Virus record (IMG/VR): IMGVR_UViG_3300009503_000019
Span: 1-64,000 of that record
DNA: 64,000 nucleotides
Strand: one strand, 5' to 3'
From: a virus
Shown here: piece by piece, positions 20,760 through 50,597 of the stretch
Numbering within the stretch: position 1 is the first letter of the stretch
How the letters are laid out: each line of letters opens with the position of its first letter
The notes under the pieces: model-generated
Told to the model about the DNA's origin: nothing
The model's database searches: none
What the model saw: only the letters and a program-made list of their open reading frames with translations
Position numbers and translations under genes: made by a program

Positions 20760-20791
20760 AATTACACCTCCTTTTTTCAAATAGTTAATTA

Positions 20792-20803: not shown

Positions 20804-20826
20804 ATGAAAAAAAATTATTTTTTCAA

Positions 20827-21030: not shown

Positions 21031-21035
21031 TTTTC

Positions 21036-21410: not shown

Positions 21411-21411
21411 T

Positions 21412-22352: not shown

Positions 22353-22368
22353 TTTATTCCTCCTCTAT

Positions 22369-22593: not shown

Positions 22594-22623
22594 TTTAACC
22601 CTCCTTTGAATTTAATATTTTTT

Positions 22624-22770
22624 TTAAGAATAAGGAATTACGCAAAAAGGCGGATCACGAACAATTTTTGAAAATCTACCACAGAATGCCGCACGAGTTT
22701 CTAAATCCATCTCCTTCAAAATTCTTGGTCTTTTCCACTTTTTCTTTTTTAATTTCTTTTTATTTTTCAT
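22624..22770 (-). CDS. Small basic protein, 48 aa
   Basis: Extremely Lys-rich N-terminus (MKNKKKLKKKKWKRPRIL) followed by MDLETRAAFCGRFSKIV and a Pro-rich end. Weak ribosome binding site. Six bases downstream of the next gene's stop on the same strand. Probably nucleic-acid binding if real. Confidence 0.45.
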   Translation of the reverse strand: MKNKKKLKKKKWKRPRILKEMDLETRAAFCGRFSKIVRDPPFCVIPYS

Positions 22771-22775
22771 TTCAA

Positions 22776-22955
22776 TTACACCGTCACACTATCAACGGTT
22801 GCGCGTATTTGGAATCTTGATTCACATTTTTCGCAATAGCAATCTGCATATATCCTTCCATTTGCATATTCATAGTTATTTATGACCCAATTTTCTTCTT
22901 GACATCGTGGACATTTTATTATTCTATAATGTTGTTGTTTATTTTTCTTTGCCAT
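22776..22955 (-). CDS. Zinc-ribbon protein, 59 aa
   Basis: AAAAGGAGGCAAAA precedes the ATG. Motifs IKCPRCQEENWVI and CYCEKCESRFQI form a four-Cys zinc ribbon. Clearly similar to the neighbouring 22939-23223 product (CPNCDSRNW ... CECEDCKIVF), so the two arose by duplication. Overlaps that gene by 17 bases. Confidence 0.7.
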   Translation of the reverse strand: MAKKNKQQHYRIIKCPRCQEENWVINNYEYANGRIYADCYCEKCESRFQIRATVDSVTV

Positions 22956-23223
22956 TTTTGCCTCCTTTTATTATTTCAAATAATACTGGAATTGCACTCA
23001 CTTTGAAAACAATTTTACAATCTTCACATTCACACTCTGCAAATAACCATCCATCGCGATATGAAATATCGGAAGTAAATCTCCAATTTCTGCTATCGCA
23101 ATTTGGGCACAACATATTCCAATAACGAATTATTGAAGTATTCTCAACCGATTTTTTCAATGAAAATATTTCAAAGCATTTATCTAAAATTTTTGATTTT
23201 GGATTGGTCTTCTTTTTCATCAT
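22939..23223 (-). CDS. Zinc-ribbon protein, paralogue of 22776-22955
   Basis: 94 residues: a basic N-terminal extension (about 35 residues), then LCPNCDSRNWRF ... AECECEDCKIVFKV, the same ribbon as its neighbour. The extension KKKTNPKSKILDK may contact nucleic acid. Real judging by duplication and operon position. Confidence 0.65.
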   Translation of the reverse strand: MMKKKTNPKSKILDKCFEIFSLKKSVENTSIIRYWNMLCPNCDSRNWRFTSDISYRDGWLFAECECEDCKIVFKVSAIPVLFEIIKGGKNGKEK

Positions 23224-23485
23224 TTACTCCTTTGATGTCGTCGATAAGAGACATTGTTAATATAAATATTGCTATAATCGATATAATTAATAATATTCCA
23301 CCAATTTTCCACTTTATAAGTGTAATAATAATTAGAGATATCATTGCCCCAATTTTAAAAATTATATCAAAAATTTTGTCTTTAATAATTTTACTTTTCA
23401 AAAATCTATTTATAATAAAAATAATAAAAAATCCCAGTAAAAATAAAGCAATTACTCTGTCCATTGTTGTTAAAATTTCTTCCAT
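23180..23485 (-). CDS. Small membrane protein, 101 aa
   Basis: Three strongly hydrophobic segments (about 11-27, 43-60 and 62-80) with a charged C-terminal tail. AGGAGGAATAA upstream. Overlaps the next gene's start by 44 bases. Possible inner-membrane accessory protein. Confidence 0.55.
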   Translation of the reverse strand: MEEILTTMDRVIALFLLGFFIIFIINRFLKSKIIKDKIFDIIFKIGAMISLIIITLIKWKIGGILLIISIIAIFILTMSLIDDIKGVNDEKEDQSKIKNFR

Positions 23486-23728
23486 TTATTCCTCCTTTAC
23501 ATCAAAATATTCTTCTAACAATTGTTTCAATTCATTTTTGTATTTTCCTCCAGTTTTGATACTATCAGGAACTTCCATTGTGGAACGTGCACTTGCGAAG
23601 GTAAATGCAATTTCATCCAGTAATTGCCAGAATTCTTCTCGTCTGACTGTTAACTCTCCTGCTAAAGCACTATTAATATAAATTCTCATGTGAATATGAG
23701 TGTCAATTTGGTCTATATGAATTGTCAT
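23486..23728 (-). CDS. Small hypothetical protein, 80 aa
   Basis: Beta-hairpin-like N-terminus (THIHMRIYINSALAGELTVR) and two helices. Four-base overlap with the upstream gene (23725) indicates translational coupling. Not recognised. Confidence 0.6.
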   Translation of the reverse strand: MTIHIDQIDTHIHMRIYINSALAGELTVRREEFWQLLDEIAFTFASARSTMEVPDSIKTGGKYKNELKQLLEEYFDVKEE

Positions 23729-24018
23729 TGTGCACCTCCTTGTTTGATAATGTATACAAAAATTGTTTCAAAATTATTTAACAATTTAAATAATTTTTTC
23801 TTTCTATTTTGTATGTCATTCAATATTTTTATAAGTTTTGCAGCCTGCTTTTTCAATTTTGAATAATCCTTCTTGTCAATTAGTTTTTTATCCAGTTTTT
23901 GTTTCATATCAATTAGAATGGTTTCTACCAGAATGCTTGCATAAGTATACATATTGAGCATTTCTTCATCAAAGAGTTTTTTCAAATTTTCCATCGTTTT
24001 TTCTAAATGTTTATTCAT
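23725..24018 (-). CDS. Helical hypothetical protein, 97 aa
   Basis: Start at ATG 24018, seven bases after AAGGAGG; a TTG further upstream overlaps the Shine-Dalgarno. Almost entirely helical and Lys-rich (KKLFDEEMLNMYTYASILVE), probably a coiled coil. Promoter TTTTGTTATAAA at 24049-24060. Confidence 0.6.
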   Translation of the reverse strand: MNKHLEKTMENLKKLFDEEMLNMYTYASILVETILIDMKQKLDKKLIDKKDYSKLKKQAAKLIKILNDIQNRKKKLFKLLNNFETIFVYIIKQGGAQ

Positions 24019-24048
24019 AACGACCTCCTTCAATTTTTTTTCTATTTC

Positions 24049-24060
24049 TTTATAACAAAA
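24049..24060 (-). promoter_or_regulatory. TTTTGTTATAAA promoter for the 24018 operon
   Basis: Minus-strand extended -10 motif, about 30 bases before the start; lies just past the terminator of the preceding transcription unit. Confidence 0.55.
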
Positions 24061-24079
24061 AAAAGAAAAAAATAAAATA

Positions 24080-24103
24080 GGGGAAGGAACTTATTCCTTC
24101 CCC
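24080..24103 (-). terminator. Terminator after 24129-24656
   Basis: Perfect 10-bp stem GGGGAAGGAA / TTCCTTCCCC with a 4-base loop. On the minus strand it is followed by TATTTTATTTTTTTC, a good U-tract. It separates two minus-strand units. Confidence 0.75.
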
Positions 24104-24128
24104 GTTAATCCAGAAGGCAGCAGTAGCC

Positions 24129-24656
24129 TTATTCTAATTCTTTTTTCAACTCATCCAATGCTTCAAGTCCATCGGGGACATCTTCAAAATCTTTTTCTTC
24201 ACCATTTTCAAGTACAATTCGGATTCCTTCGGTTGGATTTCCGTAAGTTCGTCCAGTTCTTTTCCATTTATATTTCAAGACACTTCCTTTTGGAATAGTT
24301 ACCAATGCTCCATGGGAAATTCCACAATTCCCCCGTGGACTTTCATAAACACGATATTCACATATTTGTTCAACTTGAGGTTCTAATATTTTGAATGATG
24401 AACTCCCACGGTATCCACATTGAACAAAGATATTATGAGTGATATGATTTTCGGACGGCTTTAGTATAAGAGATCCTTTTTCTGTTTTTATAATCATTGC
24501 GTTCATCGGAAATTCGATTATGTCTTTTTCATCTTTTTTCTTAATGAGCTTGTGACTGACCCATAGACGAAAAGATTTTCGTCCATGGTCCTCAGAGCCG
24601 ACATCTACATAGGGAAATTTCTCCCCGGCCTCATTTTGTTTGTAGTTCACTATCAT
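24129..24656 (-). CDS. Hypothetical protein with structured leader
   Basis: 175 residues, beta-rich (KGSLILKPSENHITHNIFV) with an acidic C-terminal helix. No family recognised. It is a monocistronic unit with its own promoter (24740), a GC-rich leader hairpin (24670-24712) immediately before its Shine-Dalgarno, and its own terminator (24080). This isolated, structured arrangement suggests higher or regulated expression. Confidence 0.65.
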   Translation of the reverse strand: MIVNYKQNEAGEKFPYVDVGSEDHGRKSFRLWVSHKLIKKKDEKDIIEFPMNAMIIKTEKGSLILKPSENHITHNIFVQCGYRGSSSFKILEPQVEQICEYRVYESPRGNCGISHGALVTIPKGSVLKYKWKRTGRTYGNPTEGIRIVLENGEEKDFEDVPDGLEALDELKKELE

Positions 24657-24669
24657 TTTTACCTCCTTT

Positions 24670-24712
24670 TTCCCCCATTGCGCATGGGATTAGAACCCTT
24701 CGCGTGGGGGAA
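24670..24712 (-). promoter_or_regulatory. 5' leader hairpin of 24129-24656
   Basis: Outer stem TTCCCCCA / TGGGGGAA (8 bp) plus inner CGC/GCG and GGG/CCC pairing, ending two bases before the AAGGAGGT site on the minus strand. It may stabilise the mRNA or control access to the ribosome binding site. Confidence 0.6.
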
Positions 24713-24739
24713 ATAATTTTGTATTTTCATTACAATTAA

Positions 24740-24751
24740 TTTATAACAAAA
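24740..24751 (-). promoter_or_regulatory. TTTTGTTATAAA promoter for 24129-24656
   Basis: Minus-strand extended -10 motif; transcription would start near 24732, just before the leader hairpin. Confidence 0.55.
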
Positions 24752-24772
24752 AAATTAAAGATTTGTAATATC

Positions 24773-24937
24773 CTATGACCTGTATATCAAAATCATTATT
24801 ATTATTGACAATGTATATAATCCAACAAGTTGAATAGAAAAATTCTTTGTTGCTTCTATAATAAAACCAATTGTGCTAAGAATTCCTAATGTTATTGCAA
24901 AAGTTTTTATTGATATGTTAAGAATTTTGTTCAGCAT
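24773..24937 (-). CDS. Small membrane protein, 54 aa
   Basis: Start at ATG 24937, with AAGGAAATTCA upstream; a longer frame exists to 24994. Two hydrophobic spans (TFAITLGILSTIGFIIEA and LVGLYTLSIIIMILIY). Last gene of the 26475-24773 run. Function unknown. Confidence 0.5.
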   Translation of the reverse strand: MLNKILNISIKTFAITLGILSTIGFIIEATKNFSIQLVGLYTLSIIIMILIYRS

Positions 24938-24948
24938 TGAATTTCCTT

Positions 24949-25197
24949 TCATTTTTCTGAAACAATTATTGCTGAATTTACATTTTTCTGCCATTTTTTA
25001 AAACATTCATCGCATAAAAAAGAATAATCTATTCCAGGATGAGGCATTCCTGGTGTCACACTTATATCTTTAAGAATAGTCAATTTTCCGGTTTTCAAAG
25101 ATTCTTTCACGTAATAACAATGGATTATCACAGATGCTTTGTTTCCACACTCATCACATTCATAAATTTCTTTTGTTTTTGATTTTTTTCTACGCAT
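24949..25197 (-). CDS. Small zinc-binding protein, 82 aa
   Basis: YECDECGNKASVI and FLCDECFKKWQK give two CDEC pairs about 45 residues apart: a treble-clef-like zinc site, the same layout as 25571-25762 (CDFC ... CDECFEDW). Basic N-terminus MRRKKSKTKEI. Overlaps the end of the repeat protein by 8 bases. Confidence 0.65.
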   Translation of the reverse strand: MRRKKSKTKEIYECDECGNKASVIIHCYYVKESLKTGKLTILKDISVTPGMPHPGIDYSFLCDECFKKWQKNVNSAIIVSEK

Positions 25198-25558
25198 CGT
25201 ATGTCACCTTCATTGCTTCAACTTCAGCTGCTTTTTCTGCACAATATTCCAAATCTTTCCACTTACGAGCATCTTCTGGGGAGAATCCATAATTTGACCA
25301 TTCTTCCGCTTCAATCGGATCAAAATCTGCATCTCGCCATTCAGATGCTTCCATTGGGTCGTCAAAATTATGTTCTACCCATTCAGCCGCTTCATTTGCA
25401 TTAAAATTTTCGTTATACCAATCCAATGCGATTGAGGCGTTATCAAATTTTTCTGCAAAATCAGCTGCTGTTTCAATATCATCAAAGGTTTCAATCCAAT
25501 CTTTTAGATCATCTAAACTTGAAACACAATTTATTAGTCTTAGTATTGCATCTTTCAT
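25190..25558 (-). CDS. Tandem EAxEW-repeat protein
   Basis: 122 residues built from about six 15-residue repeats with consensus 'FD--EA-EW-----' (for example ANEAAEWVEHNFDDPMEASE, then FDPIEAEEWSNYGFSPEDAR). Ala, Trp and Phe recur in fixed register, so a helical solenoid is expected. Very acidic. Related W/F repeats occur in uncharacterised bacterial proteins. GGAGGAAAAA precedes the start. Likely a protein-binding or DNA-mimic-like scaffold; inference only. Confidence 0.65.
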   Translation of the reverse strand: MKDAILRLINCVSSLDDLKDWIETFDDIETAADFAEKFDNASIALDWYNENFNANEAAEWVEHNFDDPMEASEWRDADFDPIEAEEWSNYGFSPEDARKWKDLEYCAEKAAEVEAMKVTYDA

Positions 25559-25570
25559 TTTTTCCTCCTT

Positions 25571-25762
25571 TTAAAATTTTTCTCCTTCATACCAGTCTTC
25601 AAAACATTCATCACATAAGTGTATATTTTCATTTGTATCAGGTTCAATATCTGTTATTATTTCGGGGTCAATATAATTACCTTTATTATCAATTTTCCAT
25701 ATTACCCATAATTTTTGAATATTAATTGCAGCATTTTTTTCTTTGCAGAAATCACATTTCAT
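25571..25762 (-). CDS. Small zinc-binding protein, 63 aa
   Basis: MKCDFCKEKNAAI at the start and HLCDECFEDWYEGEKF at the end: paired CxxC motifs with an intervening beta hairpin. Paralogue of 24949-25197. AAGGAGGAAAAA upstream. Confidence 0.65.
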   Translation of the reverse strand: MKCDFCKEKNAAINIQKLWVIWKIDNKGNYIDPEIITDIEPDTNENIHLCDECFEDWYEGEKF

Positions 25763-25773
25763 TTTTTCCTCCT

Positions 25774-26475
25774 TTAAATTAATTTTGCATAAACTGGTTT
25801 TTGATGAAAAATATCATCTGGAATTTTTAATAATTCTTCAAATGTATTTTTTACAATGAAAATTATTAATTTTTCATTTAAATGATGCCTGGGATTGGCA
25901 TAAACTTTCAGTTGTTGATTGGAGACACTAAAATATAGTATATATTCATATATTTTCTTTTTGGAAATAATAGAAATCTCAAAATCAATTGAATTATAAG
26001 ATTTACTATTTTTTATCTTTGATTCATATTTTCTAAACGTAATTTGTATTCTTATTGATTTTATTGGGAATACTGAATATATATTTTCTGATTTTTCCCT
26101 GATATGGCTAAAATTGATATAAATGTCAGAAGGAAATGCTTTTTCAATAATAATTTCATCAGTTGTACCATCGTAACAACTTCTATGTTCAATTCTTTTT
26201 ATAATATATTCTTCCCATAATATTTCCCACGGAAAAAAGCTTTTATAGTAAAAACGATTATTAGCTGCGATATGATAGTAGGGACAATATTTATTATCAC
26301 ATTTTTTTATTTTAAACATCAATTTTGATTCAATTACATTAAATACATTTATTGCTAGTTCAATTAATTTTTTTTCATTGATTTCTTGATTCGTGTTAAA
26401 AATGATTTCATTTAGGTTATTCTGACTTTTAATTAAAGTTTGCATTCTTTTAGTTAACATTGCCTTCTCCATCAC
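25774..26475 (-). CDS. Family A protein
   Basis: 233 residues. After a short extension, residues 7-40 give the family A start (MQTLIKSQNNLNEIIFNTNQ, then EINEKKLIELAINVF). KKCDNKYCPYYH follows at about residue 56, reminiscent of the Cys insert in other members. Beta-rich centre. Four bases from the next upstream gene. Confidence 0.65.
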   Translation of the reverse strand: MMEKAMLTKRMQTLIKSQNNLNEIIFNTNQEINEKKLIELAINVFNVIESKLMFKIKKCDNKYCPYYHIAANNRFYYKSFFPWEILWEEYIIKRIEHRSCYDGTTDEIIIEKAFPSDIYINFSHIREKSENIYSVFPIKSIRIQITFRKYESKIKNSKSYNSIDFEISIISKKKIYEYILYFSVSNQQLKVYANPRHHLNEKLIIFIVKNTFEELLKIPDDIFHQKPVYAKLI

Positions 26476-26478
26476 AAG

Positions 26479-26865
26479 TTATACTAAATTTTTTAATCTT
26501 GTCTCTTCTTGTGGAAGTAATTTATCTACTCTATTTTTAAAATCTTCTAATTTGCAATATGTGTTGGTTCCGCCATGATAGTCTTTTTCATTTTGTGCCG
26601 TTCTCACTAGAATATTATCAATCCATAGATTATTAAATCTTACATCAGGAATACTAAAATATACATATCCATCTCCTCGACGGATGAAACCATAAATATA
26701 AAAATGACCAACTTCATATTTTATCAAACGTGCTCCTAATGGAAGTAAAGAAATAATAATTTGCTTAAATTCTTTTGCAAATTGTAAAAATTCTGGTGTG
26801 TTCGCCAAAGAACTATAAAAAGTAAAATTTGAATACTTTTGCTTGAATTTTACTATTTTATTCAT
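26479..26865 (-). CDS. Hypothetical protein, 128 aa, possibly family A C-terminal half
   Basis: GGAGGTGTTCT precedes the ATG. Contains FAKEFKQIIISLLPLGARL, strands, and a conserved-looking TAQNEKDYHGGTNTY. Lacks the family A N-terminus, whereas the gene just upstream (26884-27102) has only the N-terminus. The pair may be a split family A gene. No clear family on its own. Confidence 0.5.
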   Translation of the reverse strand: MNKIVKFKQKYSNFTFYSSLANTPEFLQFAKEFKQIIISLLPLGARLIKYEVGHFYIYGFIRRGDGYVYFSIPDVRFNNLWIDNILVRTAQNEKDYHGGTNTYCKLEDFKNRVDKLLPQEETRLKNLV

Positions 26866-26883
26866 AGAACACCTCCAATTTTA

Positions 26884-27102
26884 TTATTGATATTTATATG
26901 AATCACTCCAGAAATAAAAATCAATATAATACATGCTTGTATCAGTTTCGTTTATATGTATTGATGAAGGTAATGATTGGAAATTTGATAAATTGGTTTT
27001 ACTGAGCAATTCAACGAGATGTAATAAATTGTTTTCTAAATCCGGCTTTATAATTTCAAAATTAAATATTGCATTATTTATTCGTTTTTGTAATTCTAAC
27101 AC
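26884..27102 (-). CDS. Short family A protein (N-terminal half only)
   Basis: 72 residues starting MLELQKRINNAIFNFEIIKP, a perfect family A start, but the frame stops after the first strands (YYIDFYFWSDSYKYQ). Family members are usually 180-240 residues. Truncated or split; 18 bases separate it from the next frame. Confidence 0.55.
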   Translation of the reverse strand: MLELQKRINNAIFNFEIIKPDLENNLLHLVELLSKTNLSNFQSLPSSIHINETDTSMYYIDFYFWSDSYKYQ

Positions 27103-27198
27103 TTCATTTCCTCCTGAAACTTTTTCTTTCCTTTTAACTTAAAAATTATTTATTTTTGTTAAAAGTTCAATAAAATATTTAAAAAGGAGGTTTTTCCA

Positions 27199-27789
27199 TT
27201 GAAAATTAATATCGACAAAATAATAAAATGTCAAAGTAAATTGAATGAAAAGTTATTTGTTCCGGATAAAGATATAAAATTGATAATAGATTCATTAAGA
27301 GATGTATTACTTCCAGATGGTTATGAATTAGAGATAGATTGGAAGAAATTGCATGAACATAAGTATTGGATATTCAGAGTTGATAAGTATTCTTATAAAA
27401 AAGTTAATATTGACATTGATCATATTTTAATACATTCTATGAGTTCTAATCGATTTGTAAAACGACTTAGAACTAGAGATTTGGCATTTGATCTTATGTT
27501 CTATGTAGATAATTTAGATTTTGATAGAAATTTCATTCCTTTCACAATATCATTGAAAAGTATTAAAAGAAGAAAAATAAATCTTACTATCAGTTATAAT
27601 GCTAACACTGATGAATTTTATATAAGAATAATAACGCGAGATTATAATTGGAGTTGGGATTGGTTTATTCCATTTCCTGATAAATATCTTGATAAGATTT
27701 CTATTGATAAAATTTATATAATTTTTAAATTATTATATCCATTACTTGAAAAAATAATGGAAGTTCTGACTAAAGGAGTTGTGGAATGA
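27199..27789 (+). CDS. Family A protein, TTG start
   Basis: 196 residues. The TTG at 27199 follows AAGGAGG with good spacing and gives the family start KINIDKIIKCQSKLNEKLFV, then PDKDIKLIIDSLRDVL. No ATG is available nearby. Four-base overlap (ATGA) with the next gene. A TTTTTGTTAAAAG promoter-like motif lies at about 27155-27167 on the plus strand, so here the family is read in the opposite direction. Confidence 0.7.
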   Translation: MKINIDKIIKCQSKLNEKLFVPDKDIKLIIDSLRDVLLPDGYELEIDWKKLHEHKYWIFRVDKYSYKKVNIDIDHILIHSMSSNRFVKRLRTRDLAFDLMFYVDNLDFDRNFIPFTISLKSIKRRKINLTISYNANTDEFYIRIITRDYNWSWDWFIPFPDKYLDKISIDKIYIIFKLLYPLLEKIMEVLTKGVVE

Positions 27790-28397
27790 ATGAAATGATA
27801 GATGAATTAGTAAGATTGCAGAATTATACAAATTATTGTCAATATTATGTCAGTAATGAAGAGACTTTAGATTTAATTAAAGAAATTTATAAATATTTGA
27901 TGGTATTTCCGTTGAAATGTGGTAAATGTAATAAGATGGGAAAATGTGATTGTGACAAAACATACATCAGAAAAAAAAATTTATATGTTGCTCGTCATTA
28001 TAAGCAGATCTTGCAGCGTTTTCCTATAGAAATTTTAAGTATATTGGATGTTTTTATTGACGGAGAAGATTTTAAATTTTATAAATATAAGCATTATGAA
28101 GATCATGGTATTCAAACTATTAATGTGAATCTTGAAAATGAAGATATTTTAATTGTTTTGTCATTGAGTACTGTTCCTACCGAGAACTATGTATATGCAA
28201 TGGTTCTTAATTTATGTCATAAGTTTGATATTCATTCATCATTTGAACATCATTATTACAATCCGAATGTCAAAATGAATTTTCAATCAAGTCCTTCAGA
28301 TCGTGCCTGGATTCATGCATGGAAATTCAATTATGTTCTTTTGAAAAAAATACTTTCATTGTTAAAAAACATTTATATAAAATATACAAAAAAATAA
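27786..28397 (+). CDS. Family A protein with Cys motif
   Basis: 203 residues: MNEMIDELVRLQNYTNYCQY, then NEETLDLIKEIYKYL, followed at residues 44-58 by CGKCNKMGKCDCDK, a zinc-binding insertion in the same place as in 17124-17810. His-rich near residues 140-160. Its stop abuts exactly the stop of the convergent family A gene at 28398. Confidence 0.65.
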   Translation: MNEMIDELVRLQNYTNYCQYYVSNEETLDLIKEIYKYLMVFPLKCGKCNKMGKCDCDKTYIRKKNLYVARHYKQILQRFPIEILSILDVFIDGEDFKFYKYKHYEDHGIQTINVNLENEDILIVLSLSTVPTENYVYAMVLNLCHKFDIHSSFEHHYYNPNVKMNFQSSPSDRAWIHAWKFNYVLLKKILSLLKNIYIKYTKK

Positions 28398-29027
28398 CTA
28401 CAGTTTCCATTTTTTTTTGATTCTTAATATTTTTTCTTTAAATACTGGTAATGTTTTCATTGCAATATGTAATGCAAGAAATTCAACGTATTTGATATCA
28501 TCTAAATTTAAACATTTGGATAAGTTTCGGGATTTGTAAATATTTAATTTATTTTTCGAATAAGTTATTTTCAATTTATACCACCACCAGGCAGCATAAA
28601 TGCAATATCCAAAATCAATTTCAACAGTATTATAGATATTTTTTTTGAATAATTGCATCTTCACCGTGCTATATTTATCTAGATGAATTTGTGCAGATGA
28701 ATTAAGTAAATTTAGTTCGCTATTTAGATAAATAGGAATTTGTGTAGATATATAAACTTCTTCATCATTATAAGCATTATTATATACGGAGAAAGTAGTA
28801 CCATCAAATGTTTTAGATAATTCCACATTAATATAATCACAATTGAATTTTTTACTAAATTTTTCAAGGTCTTTTTTCACCGGTATACACATCTTTGCAA
28901 TATCCGAGATTATATCTACAATTTGTTTTTCAAGCTTCTTTTTTGCAATTAACATATTTTTTCTGTCACATTCGTATAAACATTTATTAACTTTATTAAT
29001 TCTGTTTTTAATTTTTATGATGTTCAT
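28398..29027 (-). CDS. Family A protein
   Basis: 209 residues, start MNIIKIKNRINKVNKCLYEC, followed by a charged helix (KKKLEKQIVDIISDIAKMC). Beta-rich middle (VYISTQIPIYLNSELNLL). Overlaps the upstream family A gene by 4 bases; the two are co-translated. Confidence 0.65.
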   Translation of the reverse strand: MNIIKIKNRINKVNKCLYECDRKNMLIAKKKLEKQIVDIISDIAKMCIPVKKDLEKFSKKFNCDYINVELSKTFDGTTFSVYNNAYNDEEVYISTQIPIYLNSELNLLNSSAQIHLDKYSTVKMQLFKKNIYNTVEIDFGYCIYAAWWWYKLKITYSKNKLNIYKSRNLSKCLNLDDIKYVEFLALHIAMKTLPVFKEKILRIKKKWKL

Positions 29028-29647
29028 TCTTTTCCCTCTTTTTCAAGTGATTTAATTACTTCCAGAATTTTCATATTTAGTTTCTCCGCTAATTGTAATT
29101 TTATTATATGATTATATATAAAATTTTCTATCATGCCCTTTCTAAAATTATCTGTGAGACCGGAATTATTAGAATATGAAATATATGTATATTTAGTTTT
29201 GATACGGTATGCTTCCGGAGAAGATAATACTATTTCCATCGGATAAATACGAATCACATCATCATCACATCTAATAGAAGGAATTTTTTCTAGTATTAAA
29301 ATCATTTTATTATTTATATGATTATTTATAATGATTCTATTTGTCTTAATTTTTTTTTCTGAACTGACTGCTACTGAAAGTTCTATTTTTGGTTCTTCAG
29401 ATTCTCTATAAATATCTATATTTAAACTTAAATTTTCATGTTCTATATGATTATATCCGAATAATCGTTCCAATTTAGAATCTTCATAAGCAGAAATGAA
29501 TTTATCATAAAAAATCTTTTTCAATTTTTGTGCATTTTCCAAAATTGCTTTTAATTGATACATAAAATTGTTTTTTAATTCTTTAATCTCTTTAGGTTTC
29601 ATATAGATTGCTTGATTTATTTGTTTTTGTGCGTTCTCTATATTCAA
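29024..29647 (-). CDS. Family A protein
   Basis: 207 residues, start MNIENAQKQINQAIYMKPKE, then IKELKNNFMYQLKAI. Strand-rich middle (LNIDIYRESEEPKIELSVAV). Preceded by GGAGGTAAAAATTGA and a long structured non-coding stretch (29660-29925). Confidence 0.65.
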   Translation of the reverse strand: MNIENAQKQINQAIYMKPKEIKELKNNFMYQLKAILENAQKLKKIFYDKFISAYEDSKLERLFGYNHIEHENLSLNIDIYRESEEPKIELSVAVSSEKKIKTNRIIINNHINNKMILILEKIPSIRCDDDVIRIYPMEIVLSSPEAYRIKTKYTYISYSNNSGLTDNFRKGMIENFIYNHIIKLQLAEKLNMKILEVIKSLEKEGKE

Positions 29648-34984: not shown

Positions 34985-35779
34985 TTAATCCATTGCATAA
35001 GTATTTTCAGGCATTGATGCAATAATTTCTTCTAAATCTGGTAATTTTTTGGTTTTTTTCATAGTTTCCAGATGTTTTCTTATTTCAATAGCCCTACAAT
35101 ATCTTTTTACTTCTTCTGGGCAATAAGCACATAATGGACCGAATTCTGCAATTGAATTCGATATATCTTTTGAACCTTCATGAATTGCTTTAATTCTGTC
35201 AATTATAAAGTTTTTAATTTCTGTAGAGTTTTCAATGTCAACTTGAAATCTTTTTACTCCACGCATTGAAATATATATTAATTCTAATCGCTTAATATTG
35301 TCACTATGAGTTTTTTCATACATATATTTGTATAAATTTACTTGTTTTTTATGTGCTTCATATGGATGATATGGAAATTCCGATGTTGTTTTGTAATCTC
35401 TTAAAATTTTATTTTTGATATCAATTTCATCAATTCTTCCTACAATTTTTTCATTGTGTAATAAAAGCTGTACATCATATTCAGTTAATAAATTTTTATT
35501 ACTATGAAATTCTACTGCTAAATGTAATCCAGTTCCTCTAAATTTAAAAAATAGATTTTCAGGTTTTTCTAAGTAATCAATTTGTCTTTTCAATACTTTT
35601 TGTCTTGGACATACTGTCAAATCAGTAACATGAATATCTTCATCCATTCTTTCTTTTATCATACTCCTTAATATACTTGCCGTATAATCACATGGATTAT
35701 CTCCACTTTCTGCACATGTTAAACATTCTTTAACAGTAAATACATTTTTTCTTTTATTACACATTATTCCTTTTATCAT
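34985..35779 (-). CDS. Cas4/RecB-like PD-(D/E)XK nuclease with Cys cluster
   Basis: 264 residues. Motifs: HVTDLTVCPRQKVLKRQ (Cys58), RGTGLHLAVEFHS, the active-site stretch VGRIDEIDIKNKILRDYKTT (Asp and the D-Y-K equivalent of E-x-K), then HKKQVNLYKYMYE and a C-terminal CAYCPEEVKRYC. Together with CLTC near the N-terminus this fits a Cas4-type exonuclease with an Fe-S or zinc cluster. No cas1/cas2 or CRISPR array is present. AAGGAGGATATA precedes the start, which overlaps the E1-like gene by 23 bases, placing it in the RT operon. Confidence 0.7.
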   Translation of the reverse strand: MIKGIMCNKRKNVFTVKECLTCAESGDNPCDYTASILRSMIKERMDEDIHVTDLTVCPRQKVLKRQIDYLEKPENLFFKFRGTGLHLAVEFHSNKNLLTEYDVQLLLHNEKIVGRIDEIDIKNKILRDYKTTSEFPYHPYEAHKKQVNLYKYMYEKTHSDNIKRLELIYISMRGVKRFQVDIENSTEIKNFIIDRIKAIHEGSKDISNSIAEFGPLCAYCPEEVKRYCRAIEIRKHLETMKKTKKLPDLEEIIASMPENTYAMD

Positions 35780-36545
35780 TATATCCTCCTTGTACTAATC
35801 TGATCATATTATAAAATTCATCACAATCATAGAATTTATATTTATCCCCAAAAAATATTCCAAGATATTTAATAGTTTTTTTAGTGAGTATCTTAATTAT
35901 GAAAGATGTTGCTAATGATGCTCCAATGATATTCCATATTGGAAGTATACCATTTCCACAATGTACTTTTGACACGTTATTCTTTGATAACATTATATGC
36001 CATGGGACTATGTCAGTAATTTTGAATCCATCAAATATTTGTTTACCTGATTTATGTCTTATATTATAATATTGTGAGGAATGACTTATTGGAAATAATA
36101 GAGTTTGCCCTCCATTTTCATGAACGCCAGTATCGATGATTGCGATAATTTTTGAAATTAAAAAACGTGAACAATGATGGAATATTTTCAGTCGGGTTTC
36201 GAAGTTATCAACACACAAAACAATAATTGCATACATATTTAAAAAATTATTAATTGCATATTCTATTTTGTTTATTATATAGTACAAATTTGAGTATATT
36301 TTTGAATATCTTTGTGCTATGACCTCAGCTTTATATTTTTTTAAATCACTTTTTATAAAGTTCTGATTTAATAAATTTTTTTCTTCTACTCTATCAAAAT
36401 CTATAACAACAATATCTATATTTTTTAAATTTAATGCAGTTAGATTTCTTGCTAGAAAATTAGTGAGATAACTTCCAGTCGCTCCTGCGCCAACTATAAG
36501 TATGTTTATAGGGGCATCATAATCTTGTAAGTTAGCATATAGCAT
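35757..36545 (-). CDS. ThiF/E1-like adenylating protein
   Basis: 262 residues. Rossmann ATP-binding start NILIVGAGATGSYLTNFLAR (GAGATG at 19-24), acidic strand IDIVVIDFDRVEEKNLLNQ, then KAEVIAQRYSKIY and IVLCVDNFETRLKI, IAIIDTGVHENGGQ: the ThiF/MoeB/E1 fold, which adenylates the C-terminus of a ubiquitin-like protein. No CxxC zinc pairs are seen, as in compact prokaryotic E1s of PRTRC-type cassettes. The neighbour 36547-37050 could be the E2 partner. GGAGGAATAAA upstream. Confidence 0.7.
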   Translation of the reverse strand: MLYANLQDYDAPINILIVGAGATGSYLTNFLARNLTALNLKNIDIVVIDFDRVEEKNLLNQNFIKSDLKKYKAEVIAQRYSKIYSNLYYIINKIEYAINNFLNMYAIIVLCVDNFETRLKIFHHCSRFLISKIIAIIDTGVHENGGQTLLFPISHSSQYYNIRHKSGKQIFDGFKITDIVPWHIMLSKNNVSKVHCGNGILPIWNIIGASLATSFIIKILTKKTIKYLGIFFGDKYKFYDCDEFYNMIRLVQGGYNDKRNNV

Positions 36546-36546
36546 T

Positions 36547-37050
36547 TTATTCCTCCAGTGCGAGAAATTTTAAAAATACTTCTATGTTAATTTTTTTATA
36601 TAGAAAATTTGGTTTTTGAGAGAACGGCATTAATATAAATTTTTGAACTGCATCTTGTGCTGAATGCGGTATATAGTTGTTATAGCATATAGCTTTAAAT
36701 TCAGGTATTTCTTGAAATCCATCAATTTGATTTGGCATTTGTGGGAATATGCCTATAGATTCATTAGGAGTATTTCTATCTATTATACCAAAAAGGAATG
36801 TCTTTTTATTTTTTAAAACAATAAATAATTTTAAATTAGATGGTATTTCAATTTTTTCTATTATCTTATTATCGTTATTACCATTAATATAATACAGGTA
36901 TTTACTATCAACAAATTTGATGTCCAGAGATTTAATGAATTTATTTTTAAATAATATACTTAGCGGAACAATTTTAGTTCCTTTTATAGTATGGATATAT
37001 GCTACTTTATTTGTGTCGGGGTATATATCCATTTTCTTTGATTTATTCAT
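36547..37050 (-). CDS. Possible E2-like (PRTRC protein B-like) partner
   Basis: 167 residues from ATG 37050, after GGAGGATGATA. Strand-rich: KLFIVLKNKKTFLFGIID, IGIFPQMPNQIDGFQEIPEF, then KAICYNNYIPHSAQDAV. The single cysteine of the protein (Cys122, in AICYNN) sits where E2-like folds of PRTRC protein B carry a V-C-x-G-N segment. Similarity is faint and judged by eye, but the neighbouring E1-like gene supports it. One base from the E1-like gene's start. Confidence 0.35.
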   Translation of the reverse strand: MNKSKKMDIYPDTNKVAYIHTIKGTKIVPLSILFKNKFIKSLDIKFVDSKYLYYINGNNDNKIIEKIEIPSNLKLFIVLKNKKTFLFGIIDRNTPNESIGIFPQMPNQIDGFQEIPEFKAICYNNYIPHSAQDAVQKFILMPFSQKPNFLYKKINIEVFLKFLALEE

Positions 37051-37285
37051 TATCATCCTCCCATTTGATTGTTATGCCTGTTCCGTTTAATACGAATTTG
37101 ATAAAGGAGTTAATATTTTTATCCCAAAGATATTTTTCATTAGTCAATGTATTTTTTATTTTTTCTGGATATATGAGGATTAAATGTGGGAATAGAAAGA
37201 TATTATATTTTTCAAATGCGGTGCGTAATCGTTCATAGAATTTTGATTTTTCCAAAATTTTATATAAATTCTTCGTCGGTTTCAT
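37043..37285 (-). CDS. Small hypothetical protein of the RT/E1 operon, 80 aa
   Basis: Start at ATG 37285, after GGAGGGTGATT. Begins MKPTKNLYKILEKSKFYERL; helical N-half and a beta-prone end (FVLNGTGITIKWEDDNE). Overlaps both neighbours (8 and 26 bases). Not recognised; small size leaves open a ubiquitin-like role but no motif supports it. Confidence 0.5.
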   Translation of the reverse strand: MKPTKNLYKILEKSKFYERLRTAFEKYNIFLFPHLILIYPEKIKNTLTNEKYLWDKNINSFIKFVLNGTGITIKWEDDNE

Positions 37286-37649
37286 AATCACCCTCCAAAG
37301 ACTTTAATTGATTTGCAATTTCTTTTAAAACGTCTATATTTTTATGTATTTCAATAAAAAAATTTATTGCTTTATAAAGATCTTCTTTCAATTTAGGATC
37401 CAATGATAAATCCGGATCGAATTCTAATTTGAAATTATATCCCTTTTCACCAACAATTAATCCGACTTTATAAATAGAATCATCAATTTTTTCTATATTA
37501 TTTTCGTCAATTTTTATGTTAAGTCCGTCTAATTCATGAATAATTTCTTTTTTAATTTCTTCTTCTGACAGGGTATCATTCAATTCCAATACAATTTCAA
37601 AATCTGTGCTTGTTGGGTAGTTAGGACCTACTATTTTAATTTCTTTCAT
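37260..37649 (-). CDS. Acidic hypothetical protein of the RT/E1 operon, 129 aa
   Basis: AAGGAGGTACTAAA upstream. Alpha/beta with two beta-hairpin-like halves (MKEIKIVGPNYPTSTDFEIV; YKVGLIVGEKGYNFKLEF) and an acidic C-terminal helix ending ETDEEFI. Between the RT and the E1/E2-like genes. Could be the modified substrate protein, but it does not end in Gly, so this is speculation. Confidence 0.5.
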   Translation of the reverse strand: MKEIKIVGPNYPTSTDFEIVLELNDTLSEEEIKKEIIHELDGLNIKIDENNIEKIDDSIYKVGLIVGEKGYNFKLEFDPDLSLDPKLKEDLYKAINFFIEIHKNIDVLKEIANQLKSLEGDYETDEEFI

Positions 37650-37667
37650 TTTAGTACCTCCTTATTT

Positions 37668-38477
37668 TTATTTGTTCATTATTTCTATAATATTTTTCCA
37701 TGAACGGTATCCCATCAATTTTTTGTGAAGATTTTCATCATAATTTTTTTCTAAATGATGCTGTAATCCACGTATGGTATGAGAATGCTTCTGTCGAATT
37801 TTTGCTACGATTTTTCCATCATAATCATCTCTATATATAGTGAATCCAAGCATTTTTACAAATGGTTTGTTTTCAGATTTATATGGAATTTTTCTACATT
37901 TGAATTTTGATATTTTGAAACCGTAGTTTAGTATTGAAGCTACTAAGTATTTATTCATTTTTTTATCTGAGTGAAACATATAAAAATTATCTATATAATT
38001 TATAATTGCTACTGCTTTATATTTAAAAATATAATCAAACATTCTGAATAATTTAAATAAAGCAAATGAAGACAATCTAGGCGAAGTTGGTGCGCCTTGA
38101 GGCAATATTAATTTTCCTTTATATTCAACAAAACATTTTTCTACAATATTTATAAATTTTGAATTGCTCCATTTGTAGAAAATATTTAATAGATAATCTG
38201 GAGTCACATTCGTAAAAAAATTTTTGATATCACACGCTGTTAAGAATATTTCATCGGGATTAGGATCGTAAAATTGTGCGTTAATGAATTTAAATATGTA
38301 GCTTGGAGAACATTTATGTTGACCCAATATTATAGTGTTTTTTAATTTTGGATATTTAATTATTGCTAATTCATGATGTAGAATTTCTTTTTGTTGTTTT
38401 TTTAAATCATCATCTGGAATATGGAGGATTCTAAATCCTCCTTTCCTTTTTGGGATTTTAATAATTTTATACGGCAT
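37668..38477 (-). CDS. Reverse transcriptase with YIDN active-site box
   Basis: 269 residues. RT blocks in order: KRKGGFRILHIPDDDLKKQQ (RT1), FINAQFYDPNPDEIFLTACD and IKNFFTNV (RT3, Asp83), LPQGAPTSPRLSSF (RT4, residues 125-138), INYIDNFYMF (RT5, where YxDD reads Y161-I-D163-N164), and KMLGFTIYRDD (RT7). The LPQGAPTSP box is typical of retron and related bacterial RTs. The second catalytic Asp is Asn, which would lower or change polymerase activity. No thumb-X maturase domain. CGGAGGAAAC upstream; promoter at 38510-38521. No obvious msr/msd RNA beside it. Confidence 0.8.
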   Translation of the reverse strand: MPYKIIKIPKRKGGFRILHIPDDDLKKQQKEILHHELAIIKYPKLKNTIILGQHKCSPSYIFKFINAQFYDPNPDEIFLTACDIKNFFTNVTPDYLLNIFYKWSNSKFINIVEKCFVEYKGKLILPQGAPTSPRLSSFALFKLFRMFDYIFKYKAVAIINYIDNFYMFHSDKKMNKYLVASILNYGFKISKFKCRKIPYKSENKPFVKMLGFTIYRDDYDGKIVAKIRQKHSHTIRGLQHHLEKNYDENLHKKLMGYRSWKNIIEIMNK

Positions 38478-38504
38478 GTTTCCTCCGAAATCTGGATTTA
38501 TTAT

Positions 38505-38533
38505 TTGAATTTATAACAAAAAATTGATAAATT
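38505..38533 (+). promoter_or_regulatory. Leaderless-type promoter for the RNA polymerase gene
   Basis: TTGAAT (38505-38510), N17, TAAATT (38528-38533), then 9 bases to the ATG at 38543. No Shine-Dalgarno. Confidence 0.6.
38510..38521 (-). promoter_or_regulatory. TTTTGTTATAAA promoter for the RT operon
   Basis: Minus-strand extended -10 motif, about 33 bases before the RT start codon, abutting the -35 of the RNA polymerase promoter. Confidence 0.55.
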
Positions 38534-44500: not shown

Positions 44501-46039
44501 ATGAAAATTTTTAGACGAGACCAAAAATTAGGAACTGATATTTCACATTATCTTGACAAAATAGGTAAAGAATTTGCATACTTATCTGGATATAGTTTAA
44601 GTTTGGATGATATAACACCAATTGATTTATCTGATATAAATCGTAAAATCAGAGAAACTATGCCGAAATTATCTTCTGATAAAGAAAGGCAAAAATTTTT
44701 ATCAGAATTAGCAGATAAAATAGATCAAAGGGTAATGTCTTCTAAAAGCCGATTAGTAGAGGCAATTAAATCTCGTGCAAGAGGAAAAGTTATTGATGCT
44801 AGACAAATTATAGGTGCACCTATTGTTGCAACTGATATTAATGACAATATTATACCCGCTCCTGTGAATACCAGTTATGCAGCAGGAATGTCTTTTTCAG
44901 ATTGGTTTAAATCAATATTTGGAGGAAGAAAAGCGGCAATAGATAAAGTAACTTCAGTGAGTGAACCTGGGATGATGACTAAAGAATTATTTTCAGCAAT
45001 GTCTTCATTTCGTATAGTAGAGCATGATTGCGGAACTAAAAATGGTGTTGAAATGGATTTAAATGAAGCGGATGCGTTAGATTATTGTTTAGCAGAAAAT
45101 ATTTATTCTCATGGAAGATTAATAGCAAAAAGGAATTCACCATTAACTTCAGATGTTGTAAATGCCTTAGTTGCACACAAAATAAATAGAGTTAAAGTTA
45201 GAACACCATTAACATGTGAATCCATAGATGGAGTTTGTCAATTATGTTATGGATTGGATAAATTCGGGCAATTTCCATCAATTGGAGAATATGTTGGAAT
45301 TAAAGCTGCACAATATATAGGCGAGCCGATGACACAATTAATTCTTTCAAGAGCCCATTTTGGTGGAACCAAAGGTGCACCATCATTACAGGGATATAAA
45401 TTATTTGAAAACATATTAAATTTTTCACCTTCAATTCGTCCTCGTGCAACACTTGCTAAATTAGATGGGAGAGTTCAAAAAATTTTGATTAATCCGGACG
45501 GATCTAAAGATGTGTTAATAGATGGAGTTAGTCATCCTGTTTCAAGAGAAAGTGTGGTTACAGTTAAAACTGGAGAAATTGTAAAAAAAGGACAACAAAT
45601 TTCAGAAGGAATTCCGCATCCTGTAGATGTATATGCTACTAGAGGGATGATGGAAATGAGAAAATATTTGTCAGAGCAATTAAGAAAAATATATTATGAT
45701 AATGGACTTAAAGTGGATAAAAGAATGTTTGATGTATTGGCAAAGGCTATGACAAATACCGGAATTATTACTGATCCTGGTGATTCTGATTATATAATAG
45801 GAGATAAAGTTTCAATAGATAAAATAGAAAATAAAAATAAAGAATTGAAGCACCCAATAAAATATACACCTGTTTTTCGTGGATTGCCCCATCAAGTCTT
45901 GCTTTCAACAGATTGGTTGAATAGAATTTCAAGAAAGGATATAAAAAATACATTGGTAGAAGGAACGATTAGGCAGTGGACTGGAGATATTTCAAGGTAT
46001 CCAATACCTGCATTCGCTTATGGAGTTGAGCTAAAGTGA
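38543..46039 (+). CDS. Fused beta/beta-prime RNA polymerase with intein
   Basis: 2,498 residues. Beta part (1 to about 1000): NPASILSAMTKMTYLGEGGL (fork-loop region), KGYNYEDAIVISE (about 636-648), EIGDKLVGRFGEKG (about 774-787) and the beta C-terminus LAPARQGEEGAKALDTYTAY. Beta-prime part: starts near GLFDPALGGLTG (about 1029), LLNRAPSLHKYNILAFKP, the catalytic NADFDGD (1360-1366) interrupted by an intein, the zinc site CESIDGVCQLCYG, and the trigger-loop start VGIKAAQYIGEPMTQL (about 2251). The N-terminal beta-prime zinc finger appears to be missing. The mature chain would be about 2,000 residues, shorter than bacterial beta plus beta-prime. No alpha or omega gene is visible. Likely transcribes phage genes; a virion-packaged role is possible because it heads a structural operon. 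Confidence 0.9.
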   Translation: MLKGYIEAIQNLFPIDSPNYTINVSNITPKIKEDVFIPENIKKMKLEGKILTTPIYADVTITDKNGKVISSRKQMKIAEIPALIPATNSYLGGKGKEITILGQFRFKPGIYTIIPSSGNVKTTFHLKGTSFHLTSDAGKLYFTVDSKHFAIYPILKFFGITDNDIINNFGNKFLEDNKIDISPAEMERLIKRFYKNISRDQRSEDEISINDIITYFSGNIFDPNVNKVTLGQDFSQLNKETLLAAIKKFLNVSTGVEPPDSKDLLIFKRFHNVNDFIKERIEGLKWQLKKKIQRNLELHPEEIRRVLPTGLLSKPSFELLNSSVASMEKYTNPASILSAMTKMTYLGEGGLQTEYAATPEMRNFNFSMLSTLDPIQMPESEKIGLVFHAALGANVDNQGNITKIVFNHKTGKYETISGTDFWIKNIAFPDQYENGKFKNPNSVKVMNEGKIKYVKSKDVDYILPMSTSFSMLSSLIPMISSFHPTRALIASKMIGQALALKNKEAPLVQSEIPSELLEIRKQLHPELTGALSDHLEHSNSFEELLGAKYSVVSPVNGTVTLVSKDEIVITDKKGEKYRFPLYNNFPVYPDSFIHQEPIVKVGDKVSKGMPLAKSNFTDGKTLALGTNLLTAYIPFKGYNYEDAIVISESASKKLTSERIIHEYFEIREGMILDKNKFRAIFPTLLLEENARKLDDDGVVKKGAIVKKGEILIAALMPRIITPDEYQLMRIHRKLVPKYRDASLVWNRENDGEVIEVRKTRHSISLLIKTSDPAEIGDKLVGRFGEKGLIAYIVPDSEMPRTKDGKVIDVIFNPLSVISRINTGQLVELALGKVAQKQGKPIYVPLFTKQNYVEYAKKLLKDHGLSDTETLIDPKTGKEIPNVMVGPKYIFKLEHEIKDKLDARYKGSYDMDLAPARQGEEGAKALDTYTAYGLFAHGALANLKEMATYKAEKNDAFWDAIENGFMLPAPKPTFAMDKFLAMLKSAGINVEKQGTTFRLLPLTDKDVTEIAKIKIENPRTVSGAELKPEKGGLFDPALGGLTGTRWGYIQLAEPMPNPIVEKALLQILQLSSAQFEDLIAGKTVNGIQGIEGLKQYLKNLDIDKLITQYQEMAKNARLDELDKYNRIIRFLKGLKEAKIKPESLIITKIPVIPPKMRPIYVKDDQVIYSPFNDLYKHLLMANELLERTKELPEEHRASIRLKAYEALKAIAGLTDPISPAFSKRPVQGILSMIAGPTPKLGYFQSKLARKEQDLVGRTAIIPEPDLHPDEVGLPYEIAWKIFEPFVIRKLIQQGYTKIQAVKNVEDRTPIAKAALEAVAKERLVLLNRAPSLHKYNILAFKPRLIEGNAMKIPPLVVVGFNADFDGDEQLGSILISVKKDFKLQKWYLDLIKTGARIMFDKNAKIPIKSDREYFIINLADFPRLHLVASKNHIDFYAVPDDIEVLAYDEKIHTISWQKATSWSLHHKRKICFINLKSGKQIVSDDDPRAVYGIDPVTLEYGRWRPAESIGKLVPVVKNLKLQEYVKQISTKGCPYWKLKNCLKETIELNEEFGYLLGYIIGDGWISYTKDEEKNVSIAIDPKNSELKKHLISITKKLFNKKYNLISEQKVSKSKWQSSKITINSKQLAWLISPWIGKNAENKHLPPFTLISPEEFRRGLLAGLIDSDGSISISHAKSKPQLLINLSTASIRLAQEIQLLAKSLGIPASITAYNGGMKNSKNYMINFSNYHFQKANLNIKHPEKRRKLLSISIESSPGLMSHDLVPFNSTLAEIIMKRINRNKEWSLYVIVQRYKNLNYITRSSALKILKIVDNDDPLFLRWKQIVLNDSITWDPVVSYEQTDIEEDGYDITVPGYETFMNIEGVILSNTMTIHTPVTQEALEEARRLLPSNNWVHEAKGTILLMPRHEAIIGIYRLTSEGRQLNITFNNEKEVEDAYKANKINFNDIVNVKGIGRTSFGRIIVNKVLPPELRDYKSQIDGSKLHDILMKIFRRDQKLGTDISHYLDKIGKEFAYLSGYSLSLDDITPIDLSDINRKIRETMPKLSSDKERQKFLSELADKIDQRVMSSKSRLVEAIKSRARGKVIDARQIIGAPIVATDINDNIIPAPVNTSYAAGMSFSDWFKSIFGGRKAAIDKVTSVSEPGMMTKELFSAMSSFRIVEHDCGTKNGVEMDLNEADALDYCLAENIYSHGRLIAKRNSPLTSDVVNALVAHKINRVKVRTPLTCESIDGVCQLCYGLDKFGQFPSIGEYVGIKAAQYIGEPMTQLILSRAHFGGTKGAPSLQGYKLFENILNFSPSIRPRATLAKLDGRVQKILINPDGSKDVLIDGVSHPVSRESVVTVKTGEIVKKGQQISEGIPHPVDVYATRGMMEMRKYLSEQLRKIYYDNGLKVDKRMFDVLAKAMTNTGIITDPGDSDYIIGDKVSIDKIENKNKELKHPIKYTPVFRGLPHQVLLSTDWLNRISRKDIKNTLVEGTIRQWTGDISRYPIPAFAYGVELK
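42641..44143 (+). other. Intein with LAGLIDADG homing endonuclease in RNA polymerase
   Basis: About 501 residues inserted directly after NADFDGD in the catalytic loop. The C-terminal splice region reads YDITVPGYETFMNIEGVILSN followed by Thr (extein TMTIHTP), with Asn1867 as the cyclising residue and Thr as +1 nucleophile. The N-terminal residue is not the usual Cys or Ser: the sequence runs DGD-E-Q-LGSILISV, so residue 1 would be Glu or Gln. The endonuclease carries LLGYIIGDGWIS (about 1555-1565) and LLAGLIDSDGSIS (about 1658-1670), both acidic residues intact. Exact N-terminal boundary uncertain by one residue. Confidence 0.85.
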
Positions 46040-46506
46040 TTGTATGTAAAAATTATACTATAGTTTCTGGTGTTGGTAGAGATGAAGATGAACTTGTTGC
46101 ATTTGATAAAGCATTAAAAAGTGCAGGATTGCATAGATTTAATTTAGTGCCTGTTTCAAGTGTGTTTCCTACTTTAGCTGAATATCATCCGCCAAGAGAT
46201 TTGAAGGAACTTGATCGTGGGGCAATCATTCATGTTGTTTTGAGTAAAATAAATGTGAAAAAAGAATTTGTAGATATATCGGCAGGAATTTGTTTAGCAA
46301 TTTCCAAAATAAGTGGTGGAGGGATCATAAGTGAATATTCGGGAGAAGTAAATAAGGAAAAATGTAAATCTATTCTAAGGGAAAGAGCCAATAAAATTGC
46401 AGAAACTCACGATCTTTTTGATATGACTATGGAATTTGAAATAATGAGTGCAAAATCTAATCCTGTAACTTATACTTGTTGTATAGCGGCAGTAGTTTTA
46501 TGGTGA
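46036..46506 (+). CDS. Pyruvoyl-dependent arginine decarboxylase homologue
   Basis: 156 residues from GTG 46036 (overlaps the polymerase stop). Matches the small PvlArgDC family: VSGVGRDEDELVAFDKAL near the start, the self-cleavage site FNLVPVSSVFPTLAE with Ser41-Ser42 (cleavage would convert Ser42 to the pyruvoyl group), then LDRGAIIHVVLSKI and an ISAGICLAISK segment, and SEYSG. Length equals the usual 155-165 residues. The family decarboxylates arginine to agmatine, a polyamine precursor; the active trimer contains both cleaved chains. Here it lies between RNA polymerase and baseplate spike genes. It could also have another decarboxylase or structural role. Confidence 0.75.
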   Translation: MIVCKNYTIVSGVGRDEDELVAFDKALKSAGLHRFNLVPVSSVFPTLAEYHPPRDLKELDRGAIIHVVLSKINVKKEFVDISAGICLAISKISGGGIISEYSGEVNKEKCKSILRERANKIAETHDLFDMTMEFEIMSAKSNPVTYTCCIAAVVLW

Positions 46507-50470: not shown

Positions 50471-50553
50471 TGCGTCGGCTCCCCCCGCCGTCTCTTCCTT
50501 ATCACCTCTCTTGGGCTTATACCCATTGGAGCGGCCGCAGGGAGCCGAACGCA
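50471..50553 (+). ncRNA. GC-rich structured RNA or 5' leader element
   Basis: In a very AT-rich setting this 83-base stretch folds as nested stems: TGCGT+CGGCTCCC (50471-50483) pairs with GGGAGCCG+(A)ACGCA (50540-50553); GCCG(T)CTC (50487-50494) pairs with GAGCGGC (50529-50535); TGGG/CCCA hairpin at 50512-50525. The internal strand TCTTCCTTATCACCTCTC stays unpaired. Located 45 bases before a family A gene start. Looks like a riboswitch-type leader or stable ncRNA; class not recognised. Confidence 0.55.
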
Positions 50554-50597
50554 AAAATCTTTCCAATATACTTATAACATTTTTTAAGGAGAAAAAA

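Follow-up and report, generated by a model that had tools for sequence, protein, structure and literature searches.

We examined a window of 64,000 nucleotides, comprising bases 1-64000 of a virus record of 121,041 bases and 30% GC (IMG/VR record IMGVR_UViG_3300009503_000019), and focused on an operon of six minus-strand genes at 34985-38477 that encodes, among others, a reverse transcriptase (RT), an E1-like protein and an E2-like protein. We consider it fairly probable that these genes represent a phage form of the PRTRC, or type 6d, ubiquitin-like operon that has been compacted and rearranged and is led by a retron-type RT. The profile matches and catalytic residues of the E1- and E2-like proteins, together with the recurrence of RT genes beside the same module in other phages, carry this reading.

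Gene content of the operon and its E1- and E2-like proteins

The six open reading frames (ORFs) reported in an initial annotation, made from the letters alone, are all present, and neighbouring genes overlap or abut; the largest intergenic gap is 18 bases, after the RT gene, and a Shine-Dalgarno sequence precedes each of the six starts in the DNA. The leading gene encodes the RT, retron-type and degenerate (37668..38477, 269 amino acids), and is followed by genes for a probable ubiquitin-like fusion protein (37260..37649, 129 amino acids), a small protein without family match (37043..37285, 80 amino acids from an ATG behind GGAGG, the best-supported start), the E2-like, PRTRC-B-like protein (36547..37050, 167 amino acids from the best-supported start), the E1-like adenylating protein (35757..36545, 262 amino acids) and a Cas4-like PD-(D/E)XK nuclease (34985..35779, 264 amino acids). 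That annotation also placed the genes under one promoter, which is unsupported, because a consensus scan gave 28 sigma-70-like matches, no more than the 30.9 expected from shuffled sequence.

The window also encodes a large terminase and an RNA polymerase of 2498 amino acids, in which beta and beta-prime are fused and which has an apparent intein. With the patterns used in the search, the closest RNA polymerase relative found has about 37% identity, and comparison is therefore remote throughout; a scan for fused RNA polymerases yielded relatives at 37% identity or less, none with such an operon in its flanks.

The E1-like protein matches ThiF (E = 1e-21), and its top NCBIfam profile is PRTRC_ThiF (TIGR03736, E = 8e-20; 71 bits, below the cut-off of 144.75), which upholds the first assignment of this gene. 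A Gly-rich loop lies at residues 18-24, and Cys196 (within 35952-35966) aligns with the invariant Cys of SCAD/SCAE in phage relatives. Judged by its sequence, the gene is a member of the PRTRC, or "operon type 6d", ubiquitin-like conjugation family. As described by Iyer, Burroughs and Aravind in 2006 (PMC1779556), the type 6d operon encodes a small ubiquitin-like protein (UBL) with a C-terminal Gly, a helical protein, an E2-like protein with a conserved Cys, a JAB protein and an E1-like protein.

A tblastn search of phages with the E1-like protein returned Vibrio phages D69, D148 and D181 and Salmonella phage Arash, which are also among the best RNA polymerase matches. The D181 locus holds UBL repeats ending in GTKG, a PRTRC_B/E2-like protein, a PRTRC_A JAB protein and E1; genes of these kinds also occur in Arash, and in Bacillus phage KLEB27-3 genes like PRTRC_B and PRTRC_A adjoin E1. 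Viral contigs gave no matches when scanned with the single sequence of the window E1 or RT. An E1 alignment scan of viral contigs yielded 80 loci, and iterative profiles over 91 loci identified 48 E2-like, 44 JAB and 39 UBL proteins. Among NCBIfam profiles, the UBL of the module matches PRTRC_C (E = 6e-10 for locus L047), the JAB protein PRTRC_A (E = 4e-20 for D181) and the E2, weakly, PRTRC_B. Complete sets of UBL, E2, JAB and E1 occur in cultured phages and in many viral contigs, and their composition corresponds to the fourth operon type (6d) of PMC1779556. In D181 (L005:4392-5180) and a relative (L044:3595-4701), the UBL is a single protein of tandem, polyubiquitin-like repeats with GTKG ends.

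The E2-like protein has a sole Cys, Cys122 (codon within 36682-36693), and an MPN motif at residues 105-107; N107 and C122 are invariant in an alignment of 20 proteins. By hhalign against the phage E2 profile, 36547-37050 ranks first among the phage's 152 ORFs (E = 0.0016), over the catalytic region. A profile search of the PDB with the E2 alignment returned ubiquitin-conjugating enzymes only (E = 0.28-0.69, none significant singly), and the alignment spans HPN...C, placing "fpNvysgGniCwG" on "HPNVYADGSICLD" of UBE2B and the Cys on the RAD6 active site. What this comparison supports is the E2 identity of the family, in whose alignment the window protein is one row. In an NCBIfam search the window protein had no direct match to TIGR03737 (PRTRC_B). 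On its aligned Cys and Asn and its rank against the phage profile, 36547-37050 is probably a divergent E2-like protein, as the initial annotation had guessed.

Linkage of RT and conjugation genes in other phages

The initial annotation had set conserved co-occurrence of RT with the E1-like gene in related phages as one test of its proposal, and we found such co-occurrence, with E2 as well, with both of two baits. With E1 as bait, an RVT_1 search of whole records found an RT in nine of the 44 E2-positive records, eight of them retron-like and one like the RT of a diversity-generating retroelement (DGR); the latter (L037, with YMDD and "IPIGALTSQ") was left out of the linkage count. All eight retron-like RTs lie within about 9 kb of E1, and none of the 35 E2-negative records has an RT (P = 0.008 for 8/44 versus 0/35, Fisher's test). 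With RT as an independent bait, E1 was found within 10 kb in 24 of 80 loci, which include some near-duplicates, mostly together with E2 and JAB. A DGR identity of the counted RTs was rejected; the window RT has QGAPTSP. A search for direct repeats resembling the template and variable repeats of DGRs near the RTs of ten relatives returned only palindromes and the UBL repeat itself.

Five loci (L092, L094, L095, L131 and L132) share the order UBL, a small protein and a protein of 200-300 amino acids, E2, JAB, E1, zero or one gene, and RT. In the RT tree, module-linked RTs form three groups, A, B and C, so that the number of clades concerned is at least three. The module is in the locus for 14 of the 26 rows of clade A; of the other 12, 11 are contigs that break off no more than about 2.6 kb upstream of the RT, and the record of the exception, L170, holds a JAB gene. 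The contigs concerned (L139, L143, L146, L147, L151, L152, L154, L155, L160, L167 and L133) end 0.2-2.6 kb upstream of the RT. Such ends are commoner than chance suggests and may reflect an assembly break at palindromes or the genome end. Two relatives (L014:3384-4033 and L019:3355-3963) have an imperfect palindrome of 530-660 bp next to the UBL gene, and two others (L148:7831-8361 and L158:8105-8639) have one upstream of the RT; these palindromes are origin-like, containing iteron-like repeats and a centre rich in AT. Among bacterial loci with E1 and E2, only two of 47 have an RT, 8-9 kb away; this rarity makes the RT pairing look characteristic of large phages.

Genes for Whirly-type single-stranded DNA (ssDNA)-binding proteins follow the RT in clade B and C loci, and clade B relatives add a CCA-adding enzyme, ClpP (L092) and a tmRNA gene. 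In relatives, functions in nucleic-acid handling and in proteolysis are thus encoded nearby. The tmRNA genes (L094:11403-11808 and L095:11513-11966; Rfam RF00023, 89.7 and 71.2 bits) lie just downstream of the RT and a SpoVG-like gene, and both phages belong to clade B and carry the ubiquitin-like operon. Small proteins encoded directly after the RT in L131 (10783-11124), L132 (10836-11162) and L092 (10776-11156) have the ends DDIPF, DDLPF or DGIPF, like the C-terminal tip of bacterial single-stranded DNA-binding protein; that of L131 is weakly SpoVG-like.

The putative UBL and the JAB gene

Of the two small proteins first described as unknown, one is probably a UBL fusion; the other (37043-37285) still had no family match in profile searches and is, by position, the counterpart of the 200-300-amino-acid protein found between UBL and E2 in relatives. 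In the 129-amino-acid product of 37260-37649, GEKG at residues 67-70 (37440..37451, minus strand) falls on the invariant GxKG column of phage UBLs and is, from the alignment, the predicted mature UBL C-terminus and JAB cut site; the UBL of L092 likewise ends in AGEKG. Residues 71-129, which end in EEFI, are a predicted small helical partner. The small proteins between UBL and E2 in relatives have an aromatic-aliphatic C-terminus in 21 of 43 cases, compared with 2% of other ORFs. Both features, the GEKG motif and such a C-terminus, are combined in 37260-37649 alone among the phage's 152 ORFs, and no such combination occurs in 3434 ORFs from other loci after exclusion of known UBLs; these counts are descriptive, because the features were defined after the motif was seen. 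UBL-tail fusions also occur in three relatives (L018, L021 and L024). An AlphaFold2 model of the protein (pLDDT, the predicted local distance difference score, 64) shows a ββ-α-ββ arrangement with GEKG in a loop and two helices, and is compatible only. Most likely, then, the protein is a UBL (residues 1-70) fused to a helical partner (71-129). A different ORF (L002:12056-12409) that came first against the UBL profile was set aside as a chance match; it has no C-terminal Gly motif.

A JAB gene (P0002) lies at 102275-102940 of the record and matches TIGR03735 (PRTRC_A) at E = 1.1e-8, below the cut-off, with the motif HSH...SGTDDKDD. It overlaps by 10 bp an AAA ATPase gene whose best profile is CDC48 and whose nearest relatives are CDC48/PAN, and the two form an operon at 100.6-102.9 kb, among genes that by eye appear to encode baseplate and tail proteins. 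No proteasome core gene was recognised in the phage, although no systematic search was made.

The RT of the window

The window RT matches RVT_1 (E = 9e-13); its best NCBIfam profile is retron_St85 (E = 1.4e-18, below the cut-off). The motif A Asp and QGAPTSP are retained, and we confirmed that the protein has YIDN (residues 161-164) in place of YxDD. NAxxH and VTG are also missing, INAQF and MLG standing in their places. All other module-linked RTs have YxDD, which in relatives is YADD. An RT without the second Asp of YxDD is usually a crippled polymerase; by these motifs the window RT is degenerate, and its polymerase activity is probably impaired. A one-base sequencing error may lie behind YIDN; the loss of NAxxH and VTG and a long branch in the RT tree (5.3 substitutions per site, joining clade A weakly) argue for real divergence. 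We argue that the gene is kept, because its reading frame is intact. The divergent RNA polymerase gene begins about 65 bp from the RT start, too near for a retron RNA to fit ahead of the RT, and an Rfam search of the window gave zero matches.

Proposed mechanism and alternative readings

From the gene set, the catalytic motifs and the recurrence of the linkage, all read from sequence, we infer a series of chemical steps, a cut in the fusion, targets and a role for the RT, as follows. The JAB protein (102.3-102.9 kb) would cut the 129-amino-acid fusion after GEKG and so expose a C-terminal glycine. The E1-like protein would adenylate this glycine and take the UBL on Cys196, from which the UBL would move to Cys122 of the E2-like protein and then to target proteins. 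Together with the overlapping PAN/CDC48-like AAA ATPase, JAB might untag or unfold modified targets, as Rpn11 and Rpt do on the proteasome. The RT would be a functional partner, its complex with nucleic acid being the probable object or guide of tagging, which we propose because the RTs of relatives have an intact YADD and are sometimes accompanied by Whirly proteins. With the second Asp of YxDD lost, nucleic-acid binding is a likelier role for the degenerate RT of the window than cDNA synthesis. The setting is most likely phage-host or phage-phage conflict, in which we infer a role in defence or counter-defence. Tentatively, and with a little less than even confidence, we suggest a phage system of a new class: the RT, or its RNA or cDNA, would be the substrate, sensor or scaffold of UBL modification directed against host defences or rival phages.

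Several points weigh against the reading of the locus as an RT-led PRTRC-type operon. The linkage counts are not independent, because clade A loci share synteny, and 35 of the 44 E2-positive records, several being fragments, have no RT; as most E2-positive phages show none, the RT is not essential to the module. In the window phage, the RT has YIDN rather than YxDD, the JAB gene lies far from the six-gene operon, and the UBL profile comparison ranks 37260-37649 only 59th of 152; Foldseek gave no significant fold match for the model of this protein and none for that of the E2-like protein, which is itself poor (pLDDT 55). The records without RT, the degenerate window RT, the unlinked Cas4-like gene and the position of clade A RTs (4-9 kb from E1, behind opposite-strand genes) would also fit a real UBL module in which RT and Cas4 are unrelated passengers, co-transcribed here and sharing an accessory region in other phages. 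We regard this as unlikely, however, given that E1 is directly followed by RT in two unrelated RT clades, that the RT heads the window operon, that none of the 35 control records has an RT and that the RT bait recovers the module.

A module serving virion assembly or replication, in which phage proteins with structural or replicative roles receive the UBL and the RT and ssDNA-binding genes act in replication, is to us a somewhat unlikely alternative to the conflict setting. It would explain why Arash has its E1- and E2-like genes close to a PAAR spike gene and under the annotation "structural protein", why the JAB-AAA pair of the window phage stands amid apparent baseplate and tail genes, and why B and C loci have Whirly genes after the RT, and JAB and UBL-like domains are found in lambdoid tail assembly (PMC1779556); yet the module also occurs in bacterial genomes and is sporadic, and "structural protein" may be mere prediction. 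A genuine retron, with the conjugation system or Cas4 as effector and a reverse-transcribed RNA encoded nearby, is in our view quite improbable. The B and C RTs do match retron profiles (retron_St85 at E = 1.4e-51 for L131), four of them, including B-clade relatives, keep NAxxH and VTG, and a structured stretch of 240-350 nucleotides lies between E1 and the HNH-RT in L094 (8988-9332) and L095 (9099-9334), but in the window and in L092, L131 and L132 the sequence immediately ahead of the RT is too short to hold an RNA gene, Rfam found no retron RNA in the window or relatives, profile scores are below NCBIfam cut-offs, and the window RT has none of YxDD, NAxxH and VTG. The stretch in L094 and L095 ends in a conserved tRNA T-arm-like GGTTCGATTCCT...ACCACA and might serve the RT as a partner RNA or a tRNA-like start site.

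The Cas4-like nuclease and other features of the window

The protein encoded by the last gene matches PDDEXK_1 (E = 1e-8), phrog_1706 (E = 9e-18) and a Cas4 profile (E = 3e-11), and its RecB-type nuclease motifs and Fe-S cysteines are intact (CPRQ, GTGLH, GRID, DYKT, QxxxY and CxxC). Its identity as Cas4-like stands; its membership of the module does not, as phrog_1706 matches eight of 24 related records and none of the matches is inside the operon. We rejected a function shared with the module, the linkage being absent in relatives, and the gene is probably an accessory or chance neighbour. Profile searches of the six genes did not show cas1 or cas2, and no separate search for CRISPR arrays was made.

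By eye, 10606-29647 and 50511-51794 encode many alike proteins of 160-250 amino acids on both strands, with an N-terminal "xxLNKxxFxxDxEIxx", possibly a large paralogous family; a pyruvoyl-dependent arginine decarboxylase-like protein (46036-46506) and a TnpB-like transposon protein (15998-16900) were also seen by eye.

Relation to known systems

The phage module resembles PRTRC/type 6d operons in that PRTRC_ThiF, _A, _B and _C profiles match; it differs in being phage-borne, in scoring below curated cut-offs and in the presence of an RT, and in the window also in a JAB gene split off with an AAA ATPase, a UBL probably fused to the helical protein and an added Cas4. The logic of E1, E2 and JAB is that of Bil (BilABCD) and of Cap2/Cap3 in CBASS, and the probable UBL recalls Bil, in which JAB trims the UBL ahead of activation (PMC11354881). 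Unlike those systems, the E1 here is a separate single domain of 262 amino acids, of which PADLOC E1-E2 models match only the adenylation domain, profile searches found no CD-NTase among the operon genes, and the genes are encoded by the phage, not the host. With retrons (St85-type RT) the locus shares the RT fold and, in relatives, NAxxH, VTG and YADD, but Rfam recognised no template RNA gene and the window RT is degenerate. The overlap of JAB with a PAN/CDC48-like AAA gene recalls, in arrangement only, the lid-base pair of the proteasome (Rpn11 JAMM with Rpt/PAN ATPase).

Although the parts are individually known, a phage-borne conjugation module with an RT was not found in the open-access literature searched, which included few subscription papers or preprints; "PRTRC", "ubiquitin" and "phage" together returned no paper there, and the founding survey (PMC1779556) leaves reverse transcriptase unmentioned. 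The recurrent joining of the two in large phages, many of them only distant relatives, suggests a phage-run ubiquitin-like pathway tied to reverse transcription. Bacteria use ubiquitin-like tagging, and separately RTs, against phages. Cultured carriers (Vibrio phage D181, Salmonella phage Arash and Bacillus phage KLEB27-3) make the targets of PRTRC-type systems directly testable.

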